Source: Methanolobus profundi
GTDB taxonomy: Archaea > Halobacteriota > Methanosarcinia > Methanosarcinales > Methanosarcinaceae
NCBI RefSeq assembly: GCF_900114835.1
Contig: NZ_FOUJ01000002.1
Coordinates: forward strand, 142,374 to 206,373
Length of the DNA stretch: 64,000 bases
Direction: 5' to 3'
In this document: positions 34,448-40,989 of the stretch, piece after piece
Numbering within the stretch: position 1 is the first letter of the stretch
How the letters are laid out: every line of letters begins with the position of its first letter
Position numbers and translations under genes: made by a program
Notes under the pieces: model-generated
Seen by the model: the letters and a program-made list of their open reading frames with translations, nothing else
What the model was told of the DNA's origin: nothing
Database searches by the model: none

Positions 34448-35146
34448 TTATGTTCTCTTGAGAGAAAGCTCGGTGCCTTCAATACTGTATTCGAACCAGG
34501 GTGTTGGCTTTGAGGTCAAACCTACTACCCTCATTGCATAGGAATCCCCTACTGCCTTTATCTCGATCATCCCGTCAAAGAGCTGTTTCAGAGTGGCTAT
34601 GGTCTGAGCGTCGTGCATCTCATCTTCAACTACATAAAGACCAAAACCGTTCGCTGCCTTTACACGACCTGTAAAGACATGAAGGAACCTGAACACGGTC
34701 TGTATGTTAGAATACATAAGAATAGTGGACAGTGAGTTGATACAGAGATGGATATGTTCTTTCTGCTTCCTTACAAGCATCTCTTCGAAGAACTGGCTTA
34801 TCTTGACACCTATCCCGGTAAGATCGACAGGACTTGAAGCCCTCTTTATCTTATCCGTATCTGCGGCTGCCATTCCAAGGGTCTTGGTGACACAGTCAAC
34901 CACACCGATATCGGCATCTGCAAGAGACATTCCATTATCTTCGAACCATCCAAGTACGCGTTCTCCGGGTTCGCGCGTAGAAACTATTATAGCCGAACCA
35001 TCAGGGGTCTGGCTGTTAAAAATGATCGCGTCCAGCAGATCATCTTTCCGGCTCATAGGCGGGCCTATCATCATCAGATTGGTTCCTTCCCGGATGCCGC
35101 CAAGCAGATCATCCAGTTCCTTGATGCCTAAAGAGTACCCGGACAT
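34448..35146 (-). CDS. KaiC/RadA-like protein with degenerate Walker A
   Basis: 232 residues, a single RecA-like domain as in archaeal KaiC-like/Rad55 proteins: SLGIKELDDLLGGIREGT at the start, STREPGERVLGWFEDNG in the middle. The nucleotide loop at residues 28-35 reads GPPMSRKD instead of G-x-x-G-x-G-K-T, so ATP binding is probably weak or absent. ICINSLSTILMYSN-like Walker B lacks the usual acid pair. It may be a regulatory pseudo-ATPase that pairs with an active KaiC-like protein such as the one at 38440. Monocistronic with TATA-like sequence upstream near 35250. Confidence 0.7.
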   Translation of the reverse strand: MSGYSLGIKELDDLLGGIREGTNLMMIGPPMSRKDDLLDAIIFNSQTPDGSAIIVSTREPGERVLGWFEDNGMSLADADIGVVDCVTKTLGMAAADTDKIKRASSPVDLTGIGVKISQFFEEMLVRKQKEHIHLCINSLSTILMYSNIQTVFRFLHVFTGRVKAANGFGLYVVEDEMHDAQTIATLKQLFDGMIEIKAVGDSYAMRVVGLTSKPTPWFEYSIEGTELSLKRT

Positions 35147-37720: not shown

Positions 37721-38329
37721 ATGGAAGATTACGAAGCGCTTCTTGATCGTGCAATAGCAAACTTACCTGACATGGAGACTACGGATGCCCGTTTCGTAAT
37801 CCCTGAGCCTAAGATCATGGTGGAAGGTAAGACCACGATCCTTGATAATTTCAACAACATTGCAGATGTCCTGAACAGGGAACCTGACCACGTGATGAAA
37901 TATCTCACACGTGAAATGGGTACAGCAGGTAAGATCGACGGTATGAGAGCGGTTTTCCAGGGAAGGTTCTCAAAAGAGCAGATCAAGTCGAACATCGAAG
38001 CATATGTTGAAGAGTTCGTCATGTGTTCAGAATGTGGAAGACCTGATACCCAGCTTATGAAAATGGACCGTATCATGGTGTTGAAGTGTGCAGCATGTGG
38101 TGCACACAGACCTGTGAAGAAAAGACGTGCCAGTGCACCTGTCAAACAGGACGCCATTGAAGAAGGCAAAGAATACGATGTTCGTATCGATGCTGTTGGT
38201 TCCAAGGGTGACGGGATCGCTAAGATGGACAGGTTCACCATCTTCGTACCAGGTGCTGCAAAGGGTGAGACTCTCAAGATAAGGATCAAGAGGATCAGCG
38301 GAACCCTTGCATTCGCCGAAAAGGTCTGA
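37721..38329 (+). CDS. Initiation factor aIF2-beta with C-terminal TRAM domain
   Basis: 202 residues. The N-terminal helix and alpha/beta core are followed by the zinc ribbon Cys102-x2-Cys105 and Cys123-x2-Cys126. Residues about 148-202 are a TRAM domain ([32 protein letters not shown]), an RNA-binding module absent from aIF2-beta of most archaea. The factor joins the aIF2 complex that brings initiator tRNA to the ribosome. Methanosarcina homologues are, to my knowledge, also TRAM-fused. The L10e gene is just upstream. Confidence 0.9.
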
Positions 38330-38366
38330 TACCTGATAACAGGTATCATTTTTCTTCTTTTTTTTT
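38328..38366 (+). terminator. Terminator of the L10e-aIF2-beta operon
   Basis: A perfect 8-bp stem (38328-38335 with 38340-38347) on an ATAA tetraloop, followed by ATTTTTCTTC and eight T. Two bases of the stem belong to the aIF2-beta stop codon. Confidence 0.85.
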
Positions 38367-38439
38367 CAAAAGCAATTATTATATATTCATTGAGCCGTAT
38401 TTATATTAAAAACTCGAAATTAATCGCTCGAGGAAAGAT

Positions 38440-39225
38440 ATGGCACGAGTACCTACAGGAATACCAGGATTTGATGAGCTTATAGAAGGTGGGTTCATTG
38501 AGAATGATGTAATTCTCCTTACCGGAGGGCCCGGTGCAGGAAAATCAACTTTTGGATCGCAGTACCTGTATGCAGGAATTATGAACCATGATGAACCGGG
38601 AGTCTACGTCACATTTGAAGAGACACCTGCCCGGATCATGAGAAATATGTGGAGACATGGATGGGACATGGAACGTCTCATCAAAGAGGACAAGCTTCGC
38701 GTAATAAGGGCTGACCCAATTGCATATGACCGTTACATCAAGAAGACAATGGAGCCTGAAAAGGTAGGGGACCATGAGAATGCCACTCTTGAGACAGTGC
38801 TGAAGCAGATCTATGCAAGTGTCAGGGAAATAGATGCAAAGCGTCTTTTCATTGATTCACTGACATCCCTGAAGATATCTTCCGATCCGGTACATGTAAG
38901 ACATATAATACTCGAGTTCATCAAGAACGTTGAAAGCTTTGACTGCACTACTCTCATCACCAGTGAGATCAACAAGGATCCTGAGAATTTCAGTGTTGAG
39001 GAATACCTTGCCGAAGGAGTTATCTGCCTTAAGGTCAACAGGATTGGCGGAGAAAGGATCAGATCCCTTGAGATACTGAAAATGAGAGGCGTAAAGCATG
39101 ATGAAGTGCTTCGTCCATACATAATAGCCGACAAAGGCATAATTGTCTATTCATCCGAATCTGTTATAGGTAAGGAAGCTGATGTATTCTCCCTCGATAG
39201 GTGTACAATCCCTGGGGAAGAGTAA
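38440..39225 (+). CDS. KaiC-like ATPase
   Basis: 261 residues, one RecA-type domain. Walker A is GGPGAGKST (residues 29-37), and the family marks VPTGIPGFDELIEGGF at the start, a YVTFEETPARIMRNM block near 65-80 and RLFIDSLTSLK (Walker B) are present. Archaeal single-domain KaiC-like proteins are signalling ATPases, often regulatory, and this one is not tied to a clock. The stop TAA is followed with no gap by the ATG of the radical SAM gene, so translation is coupled and the two proteins probably work together. Confidence 0.9.
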   Translation: MARVPTGIPGFDELIEGGFIENDVILLTGGPGAGKSTFGSQYLYAGIMNHDEPGVYVTFEETPARIMRNMWRHGWDMERLIKEDKLRVIRADPIAYDRYIKKTMEPEKVGDHENATLETVLKQIYASVREIDAKRLFIDSLTSLKISSDPVHVRHIILEFIKNVESFDCTTLITSEINKDPENFSVEEYLAEGVICLKVNRIGGERIRSLEILKMRGVKHDEVLRPYIIADKGIIVYSSESVIGKEADVFSLDRCTIPGEE

Positions 39226-40428
39226 ATGAAATCCGATAAAAAAGATTCAGATAACAAAGACATTACATTGGTTTCAATACCCGGACTCTCGATCAAAATG
39301 GACAAAAAAGCCGATTTTGTCCACTTGAAGGCGCATGGACCTTTACGAAAAGCATGTGCCCCTTTTTTGAAAAGGATCAATGAAAGGTTGAAAGAGGAAA
39401 AACCTGCCTTTGTAGATGAGGATAAGGTCATAGCGTCAACATGGCTGCCACCGATCCCAAGTAAGGCTTTCAACAGGTTGCTCCTTGCAGAAACACAGAT
39501 AGCACTTGGAAGATACATCCCGGAAACTGTTTCCTTTGAGATCACACGCAACTGCAAGTGTGATTGTGAGCACTGTGTTGTCAGTGGAGGAGAAGGAGAC
39601 CTTGATATTGACACCGTTAAGAGAGCTATCGATGATGTACTTGACATGGGTGCAATGGTGATCGTATTCACCGAAGGCGATCCTATGCTCCGTGAGGATA
39701 TCTACGAGCTCATCGATTATGTGGACAAGGAACGCGCAATTGTCAATATGTACACCCCGGGCACTGAGATGACACCTGAGAATGCAAGACGTCTCAAGGA
39801 AGCAGGACTTCATAATCTCCTTATCAGCGTTTACTCAACTGAACCTGAAAAGCATGATGCTGTACGTCGTCTTGATGGCGCCTATGAAATGGCTACCAAT
39901 GCCATGAAGATGGGATTAGATGCAGGATTACTTGTTACAATGACAACCCACGTGTCACCAAAGAACATCGATGAACTGCCTGCAATGTACGAACTTGCAA
40001 AAGAGATAGGAGTACACGAGTTCTCACTCTGGGAGTCAGTTCCCAAGAAAAAGGGTGATGCGATCATCAGCGATGATGACAGGAAGAAAGTACTGGAAAT
40101 GTACCACCGCATCAATTCAACCAAAGGTGGACCACGTATATTTGCCAACACGTACTTTGAGGGAGAGATGCTTGGATGTATGGCAGGACAGCGCTGGCTG
40201 AATGTCTGCGTTGATGGTCTTGTAAAACCATGCTGTTACATTCCTTTCCACTATGGGAACATACAGGAAAGTTCCGTAAAGGATATCTGGACAAAGATCC
40301 GCAAGGACAAACATTTCAGAGGTCAGAGAAGCAGATGCCTTATGCAGGAAACTGAGTATCTCCAGCTTGTTGACAAGATACCTGAAGATGCATCAAAGCC
40401 TTATGATATCGATAAACTCGAAGTATAA
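39226..40428 (+). CDS. Radical SAM/SPASM enzyme
   Basis: 400 residues. The SAM-binding cluster motif is Cys110-x3-Cys114-x2-Cys117 (NCKCDCEHC), with GGEGD-like and FTEGDPML strands behind it. A SPASM-type auxiliary cluster is suggested by cysteines in GCMAGQRWLN, NVCVDG, KPCCYIPFHYGN and SRCLMQ. The first 95 residues are an unusual domain (STWLPPIPSKAFNRLL). SPASM enzymes modify peptides or act in cofactor synthesis. Being fused by position to a KaiC-like ATPase is unusual; no peptide substrate gene is adjacent. The exact reaction is unknown. Confidence 0.85.
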   Translation: MKSDKKDSDNKDITLVSIPGLSIKMDKKADFVHLKAHGPLRKACAPFLKRINERLKEEKPAFVDEDKVIASTWLPPIPSKAFNRLLLAETQIALGRYIPETVSFEITRNCKCDCEHCVVSGGEGDLDIDTVKRAIDDVLDMGAMVIVFTEGDPMLREDIYELIDYVDKERAIVNMYTPGTEMTPENARRLKEAGLHNLLISVYSTEPEKHDAVRRLDGAYEMATNAMKMGLDAGLLVTMTTHVSPKNIDELPAMYELAKEIGVHEFSLWESVPKKKGDAIISDDDRKKVLEMYHRINSTKGGPRIFANTYFEGEMLGCMAGQRWLNVCVDGLVKPCCYIPFHYGNIQESSVKDIWTKIRKDKHFRGQRSRCLMQETEYLQLVDKIPEDASKPYDIDKLEV

Positions 40429-40437
40429 TTCAGTTTA

Positions 40438-40989
40438 TCAACTTGTTTTTTCTGAAATGGACTCTTTCATTGCCAGGAATTTCCTGAAATAGCCATGCAT
40501 CTGGTAATAAGACATCATTAGATAGGTTCCGCAAAAGAACACTATAAAACCCATATCCGGCTTAATGAAAGTATCCATTGTGCGCATAAGATACAGAATG
40601 AAAAATATAGAGCCGCTCAACCATAATGAGTATATTAGTGCTGCTTTTTTTGCACCGTATTCCAGAGCCAGTTTTCCCCATAATTTATTACCAACAAGGA
40701 TCTCTTTGATCTTCAGCTCTTTTGAATAGTCATTTTTATTAAAACTAGCCATCATTCTTTGTTCCTGGAACAGAAGGATATTCTTTCTTTTACTGATGGC
40801 AAACAGAAATGACACCATTAAACATAAAATACCCAATAGAGGACTGAAATACATTGCAGTAAATGACATGAGTATCAGGAAAGAAACAATCACAGGAAGA
40901 TAGCTTTCATGATCCCTACGTGTACGATATAGATTGTAAGATCCAATTATCAGAAAGAAAACTGCTGCCAGCAAAAATATTATATTCAT
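40438..40989 (-). CDS. Four-helix membrane protein, unknown function
   Basis: 183 residues, with hydrophobic helices at about 3-20, 30-62, 120-140 and 148-168. A central cytosolic loop (SKRKNILLFQEQRMMASFNKNDYSKELKIKEILVGNK) links the second and third helices. No family is recognised. It is AT-richer than its neighbours, converges on the radical SAM gene and has a TATA-like promoter near 41040. Confidence 0.6.
   Translation of the reverse strand: MNIIFLLAAVFFLIIGSYNLYRTRRDHESYLPVIVSFLILMSFTAMYFSPLLGILCLMVSFLFAISKRKNILLFQEQRMMASFNKNDYSKELKIKEILVGNKLWGKLALEYGAKKAALIYSLWLSGSIFFILYLMRTMDTFIKPDMGFIVFFCGTYLMMSYYQMHGYFRKFLAMKESISEKTS

Follow-up and report, generated by a model that had tools for sequence, protein, structure and literature searches.

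Three related radical SAM/SPASM genes, termed A, B and C here, probably take part in the biosynthesis of methanophenazine or of a closely related compound, and the KaiC-like ATPase encoded directly 5' of A in Methanolobus profundi would, in the same reading of the sequence evidence, probably be a dispensable, ATP-dependent gate. In cytochrome-containing methanogens, and probably in several ANME groups too, methanophenazine serves as the prenylated redox carrier. In the available passages of three papers its biosynthesis is stated as unknown (PMC6315138, PMC8546582, PMC4683180), and according to the last of these genomes can therefore not be mined for it. Among the proposals for this pathway in the excerpts available to us, PhzF was judged unclear (PMC5244752), UbiX-UbiD with AcoX were suggested (PMC5852551), and homologues of UbiE, UbiA, UbiD and UbiB were put forward (PMC6315138). 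The trio genes were nowhere named for methanophenazine in the available portions of the open-licence literature, preprints lying outside this scope. The enzyme superfamilies of the trio and of KaiC are already known. The trio is almost confined to archaea believed to use methanophenazine, and the synthesis of its ring is unsolved, so A is a strong candidate for a missing step.

The window, the whole stretch of DNA analyzed, comprises 64,000 nucleotides of M. profundi contig NZ_FOUJ01000002.1 and contains A, one member of the trio, together with the KaiC-like gene. The features of this locus are as follows.

38358-38366: poly-T run after the aIF2-beta gene and ahead of the TATA-like box, a reading of the sequence
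38400..38409, + strand: TATA-like box, 30 bases upstream of the KaiC start, seen in the sequence, with a putative function
38440..39225, + strand: gene for the KaiC-like single-domain RecA-type ATPase, 261 aa
39226..40428, + strand: gene for the radical SAM/SPASM protein A, member of the trio A/B/C, 400 aa
39226..39510, + strand: N-terminal domain of A, three strands and a helix followed by an STWLPPIPS motif (secondary structure of the model)
39553..39576, + strand: CxxxCxxC codons (CKCDCEHC), radical SAM cluster ligands, residues 110-117
39670..39684, + strand: TEGDP of A, in the position of the usual SAM-binding GGEP motif
40174..40344, + strand: SPASM region of A with three family-conserved Cys (residues 318, 336 and 371)
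40446..40451, + strand: poly-T run 18 bases past A, putatively terminator-like

The TAA of the KaiC-like gene stands immediately before the ATG of A, as the ORF coordinates confirmed. The original prediction had described the two as fused by position, which holds for position only, KaiC-like and A being two separate ORFs. It had also considered them translationally coupled, which is plausible from the layout; the gap is 0 in the window, and spacing elsewhere varied from a 4-base overlap (L079) to gaps of several to tens of bases in other genomes. With a TATA-like box and a poly-T run before KaiC and a further poly-T run after A, the pair looks like its own transcription unit. The order aIF2-beta - [KaiC] - A - TrpRS was observed in most Methanosarcinaceae stretches examined. 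The aIF2-beta encoded in the window (37721-38329, +) has a TRAM domain at its C terminus, a combination that is already known and that NCBIfam covers by a dedicated model (PRK12336). A DUF7504 RecA/KaiC-like protein without the Walker A lysine-serine/threonine (GPPMSRKD) is encoded at 34448-35146 (-), and many Methanosarcinaceae stretches among those examined encode a protein of this type close to A.

Protein A contains a Radical_SAM domain (PF04055, 3.1e-18, residues 105-257), its barrel being evident from the profile, the AlphaFold model (mean pLDDT 93.2) and the fold matches alike, as well as a SPASM domain above its cut-off (PF13186, 7e-8, residues 318-365). The canonical SPASM set consists of seven Cys, a fuller set than the three family-conserved Cys of A. 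The SAM-binding GGEP motif was not found in A, which has TEGDP instead; such EGDP variants may still bind SAM. This position reads TEGDP, TENDP, AEGDP or AEGEP in all A proteins, D/EGGEP in B, and mostly D/EGGEP or DGGET in C. Structural comparison with VIA-align, spanning residues 62-385 of the model, placed SkfB (Z 25.3, rmsd 3.6 over 284 residues), SuiB (23.6, 3.5 over 292), PqqE (23.3, 3.2 over 257) and BlsE (23.0, 3.3 over 264) closest to A. These enzymes have the same barrel plus SPASM fold and the CxxxCxxC motif, but share only 13-20% identity with A, whose N-terminal 60 residues fall outside the alignments and which differs by EGDP in place of GGEP and by its three conserved SPASM-region Cys. 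The best NCBIfam profile neighbors of the core were AhbD (TIGR04545, 154 bits) and NirJ2 (TIGR04055, 135 bits), both with cut-offs of 500 and neither with a counterpart of the N-terminal domain in the matched range. This domain had been predicted to belong to no known family, and indeed it had no Pfam match at E<=5, while a search with ten family members against Pfam returned two sub-threshold matches only (E 0.21 and 0.33). It is not unique to A, however, but common to A, B and C, with hhalign probabilities of 99.8-99.9 between them.

All three A-related genes are full length in the genome from which the window derives. Counting matches to A at E<=1e-60, three copies were present in 74/80 genomes of the family and two copies in the other six, all of which are incomplete. 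A itself was found in 79 of these 80 genomes; the one without it (G052), 73% complete, has a C-type copy as its best match. The phylum sample of 294 genomes contained 68 with matches at E<=1e-50, 63 of them with three copies and five with one or two; G097 showed two copies at this threshold and three in further searches. The matches listed (80 of 142 relatives) include the family as well as the order and class with ANME-2 and Methanothrix, and in addition Methanonatronarchaeia (Ca. Methanohalarchaeum, SCG-AAA382B04) and metagenome-assembled genomes labelled Methanocellales or UBA148. A formed a single clade in the A/B/C tree (SH-aLRT 98), in which the second and third copies of outlying genomes were not clearly B or C. 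One further genome (G210, L172:7708-10295), which has no MqnC over cut-off, carries only one trio-like gene; it adjoins a radical SAM gene of the B12-binding type that is nearest to BchE/HpnJ, under cut-offs.

The menaquinone futalosine (Mqn) pathway makes a prenylated redox carrier, for which it relies on radical SAM enzymes together with a prenyl diphosphate synthase and a prenyltransferase of the UbiA type, and its gene mqnC sits in genomes complementary to those with the trio. MqnC exceeded its curated cut-off in 82 of the 294 phylum genomes, only one of which (G153) had any trio copy, namely one B-like gene. This lone gene (L109/L171) matches Methanolobus B at 58% and may represent contamination or transfer. 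Within the Methanoperedens family (L300), MqnC was over cut-off in 29/34 genomes, and the trio was present, with three copies, in 1/34, a genome that gave no MqnC match. The available text of PMC4683180 reports menaquinone-like spectra and no methanophenazine spectra for lipids of a Methanoperedens enrichment, and that of PMC7374477 models Methanonatronarchaeia with methanophenazine and HdrDE. With methanophenazine users assigned from such passages, the UBA148 group not being among them, the trio was present in methanophenazine users and absent from menaquinone users apart from the lone B of G153. The exclusion between the trio and mqnC partly reflects shared ancestry; its strongest part is the single switch inside the Methanoperedens family, resting on one genome.

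The main context, which the original prediction had overlooked, lies in the isoprenoid electron-carrier genes that adjoin the paralogues. In the window's own genome A, B and C do not form one operon; UbiA and a flavoprotein of the geranylgeranyl reductase family precede B, and a polyprenyl diphosphate synthase precedes C. The prenyl reductase was located directly 5' of B in 16/16 Methanosarcinaceae loci compared to 0/7 elsewhere, with UbiA upstream of the B-adjacent reductase, and of the 24 loci around C, 22 had a prenyl diphosphate synthase 5' of this gene (16/16 Methanosarcinaceae, 6/6 Methanothrix-class and 0/2 ANME-2). The neighbor of C in Methanosarcina exceeded the cut-off of the geranylfarnesyl diphosphate synthase model NF040627 (615 bits), which the control genome of Methanosarcina acetivorans also passed. 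In Methanolobus the same model was the best hit of this neighbor, under cut-off (331 bits); hits to this synthase family in the phylum family f6 reached about 240-295 bits, likewise under cut-off, and were left out. The M. mazei geranylfarnesyl diphosphate synthase MM_0789 was assigned to methanophenazine by Ogawa et al., as cited in the available part of PMC3017947, and MM0779-MM0786 are described as ATP synthase genes with AtpH last in that of PMC4350412. Given this numbering and the order synthase, C, AtpH-like and AtpI-like in locus L163, C probably corresponds to MM_0788 or MM_0787.

A direct link of A to prenyl genes was confined to distant genomes (Methanonatronarchaeia and the UBA148 group), where a prenyl reductase is encoded no more than 5 kb from A in all six outlying genomes (G084, G132, G093, G126, G097 and G088). 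Four of these six encode, in the same stretch as A, a membrane protein of 308 aa that resembles UbiA and whose fold matches archaeal UbiA/DGGGP synthase (TM 0.62-0.72); profile comparison of this protein with UbiA by hhalign gave a probability of 0.4%. The same four carry an NMT1/THI5-type protein in this stretch (one scanned), and in all six a fourth radical SAM gene, nearest to TIGR03961 and under its cut-off, is located beside the second paralogue. In these loci (L156:7697-15254, L155, L157, L158 and L159-L162) A, the second trio member, the fourth radical SAM gene and the prenyl reductase are clustered; the third trio member, the UbiA-fold protein, which lacks an annotation, and the NMT1/THI5-type protein come next in this stretch, or are located elsewhere in G097 and G088. 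Gene calls at the paralogue, A-neighbor and Met33H loci are greedy longest ORFs, the starts of which may be too early. Linkage to the C25 synthase, UbiA and the prenyl reductase was thus observed via the paralogues in Methanosarcinaceae, and directly with the reductase for outlying A.

The CxxxCxxC motif was kept in 36/36 B and 40/40 C sequences, whereas 107 of the 136 distinct A sequences retained it (two AhbD-like rows, L004 and L005, were excluded from 138). B and C look like active radical SAM enzymes. The remaining 29 A sequences also lacked all three SPASM-region Cys and belonged to Methanosarcina and related genera as well as to genera with small genomes. These ligand-less genes are full length (L072:8133-9347, L073:7745-8998 and 27 more). 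Selection on them is purifying, with a dN/dS of 0.10-0.26 in the closest 14 of 78 pairs, and intact A is more strongly constrained (0.02-0.06, 14 closest pairs). When a tree was built from 70 A rows alone, one branch with support 96 had all 21 degenerate rows on one side, so that a single loss is preferred; two independent cluster losses, as suggested by the A/B/C tree, were set aside given this branch. None of the degenerate A genes in the 80 family genomes and the A loci examined had an adjoining KaiC. A fold kept with its cluster lost would parallel the haloarchaeal pseudo-SAM/SPASM proteins of TIGR04347, "pseudo" being this family's own name, although A falls outside it (102 bits against a cut-off of 525). 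Since Methanosarcina makes methanophenazine with a ligand-less A, the radical chemistry of A cannot be needed there, and a role of A as a partner protein would explain the ligand loss with retained selection.

The KaiC-like protein is covered over its entire length by the Pfam KaiC domain (PF06745, 2.2e-65). Its Walker A is located at residue 29 and its Walker B begins at 137, while the FEET and LKMRG motifs start at 59 and 213. Proteins of this kind bind and hydrolyse ATP, and Walker A, Walker B and the catalytic EE are all intact. It scored below the cut-off of every NCBIfam KaiC model and has one domain in 261 aa, unlike circadian KaiC with its two fused domains (CI-CII). Its closest known counterparts in architecture are the single-domain KaiC-like ATPases PH0284, PH0186 and SSO2452, in which the KaiC domain likewise extends over the whole protein.

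Orthologues of this gene, defined by at least 61% identity (the next KaiC proteins reach at most 41%), were present in 27 of the 80 family genomes, one copy being broken (G043), and in 27/27 A followed immediately downstream, encoded on the same strand. Their dN/dS of 0.03-0.085 in the 15 usable pairs among six plus-oriented loci indicates purifying selection. Taken together, placement and selection argue that the pair is more than a chance arrangement. The original prediction was to be abandoned if the pair were not conserved even in close relatives; the pair was conserved in all 14 genomes sampled from the genus as well as in five other genera. As a partner of A, KaiC is conserved across six genera but not general (27/80 genomes compared to 79/80 for A). 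Remnants of KaiC were detected between aIF2-beta and A in Methanococcoides and Methanomethylovorans-type genomes that lack the intact gene, with 90.9% identity over 33 residues in L030 (G014) and E values of about 1e-10 to 2e-4 at several Methanococcoides-type loci; a control with one shuffle per stretch gave zero matches. The corresponding interval contained no KaiC remnant in Methanosarcina, Methanohalophilus and other loci. The simplest reading of this pattern is that KaiC was gained once at the site 5' of A and then lost several times. Horizontal scatter is unneeded as the remnants sit at a single ancestral site, and the view of KaiC as an ancient obligate partner of A was rejected on the basis of its limited presence relative to A and the decayed copies in relatives. 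By its sequence record, KaiC is a real but lineage-specific, repeatedly lost companion of A. In Met33H (L226:4349-6628) the A cluster is directly preceded by genes of the DUF7504-like and KaiC-like kinds and by a third, small ORF that resembles a roadblock/LC7 protein by eye; KaiC-like proteins may have become paired with A independently here.

From these distributions and linkages we infer a pathway in which geranylfarnesyl diphosphate synthase would first make the C25 tail. B and C, as intact radical SAM enzymes, would then build or oxidatively couple the aromatic head, to which UbiA would attach the tail before the prenyl reductase saturates part of it. A would work alongside these two, whether as a further catalyst or as their partner in a putative complex. 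The KaiC-like ATPase, which the common ancestor of Methanolobus and related genera acquired and which is presumably co-transcribed with A, may gate A or the pathway by ATP and so link carrier synthesis to the energy state, while being dispensable.

Other products of the trio were considered. It is unlikely that A, B and C modify another prenyl lipid of Methanosarcinia, for instance an ether-lipid variant like hydroxyarchaeol, with the prenyl neighbors serving that purpose. The prenyl genes have near NCBIfam hits to geranylgeranylglycerol-phosphate geranylgeranyltransferase and digeranylgeranylglycerophospholipid reductase, both families that serve ether lipids, and the radical SAM lipid enzyme GDGT-MAS was among the structural neighbors of A, ranked low; however, the C neighbor is a C25 synthase (NF040627) and not a C20 lipid enzyme. 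The Methanoperedens family shares its general lipid chemistry with Methanosarcinales, yet the trio is absent from 33 of its 34 genomes, and this absence tracks mqnC. Maturation of a peptide (RiPP-type) into a peptide-derived cofactor has still less in its favor and appears improbable: the closest solved folds (SkfB, SuiB and PqqE) point in this direction, but B and C adjoin prenyl genes and an unsystematic look through the ORF list noticed no short precursor gene near A in the window. Since SkfB, SuiB and PqqE act on peptides and BlsE on a small molecule, a PQQ-like, peptide-derived phenazine head is possible, and such an origin would merge this alternative with the methanophenazine reading. 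Least probable of all is a function in heme or cytochrome synthesis of the AhbC/AhbD kind, despite AhbD and NirJ2 being the best NCBIfam neighbors of A and an AhbD-like gene lying about 2 kb from C in the window's own genome. That genome has separate AhbD-like and other radical SAM genes, and the trio is missing where cytochromes coexist with menaquinone, as in the Methanoperedens family (cytochromes according to the available text of PMC4683180). Heme synthesis was therefore rejected.

For the KaiC-like gene, the chance is close to even that it merely shares a promoter with A and acts elsewhere. Its sole tie to the pathway is its place beside A; it was repeatedly lost while A was retained, and the outlying A clusters lack KaiC, except for the distant KaiC-like genes in Met33H. 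Against this stands the location of 27/27 orthologues directly 5' of A and nowhere else, across six genera.

The methanophenazine reading can be extended to a fuller model, which we put forward tentatively: A, B and C, with UbiA, the prenyl reductase and geranylfarnesyl diphosphate synthase, may constitute the missing anaerobic route to the phenazine head, unrelated to bacterial Phz, with A a cluster-free pseudoenzyme in Methanosarcina and the KaiC-like protein an ATP gate in the Methanolobus lineage that couples carrier synthesis to the energy state. The loss of the ligands from conserved A in the best-studied genus is an unusual change from enzyme to pseudoenzyme. The trio makes the open methanophenazine pathway testable by providing three named knock-out targets and, as a conserved set of three marker genes mutually exclusive with those for menaquinone, would allow genomes to be scored for methanophenazine.
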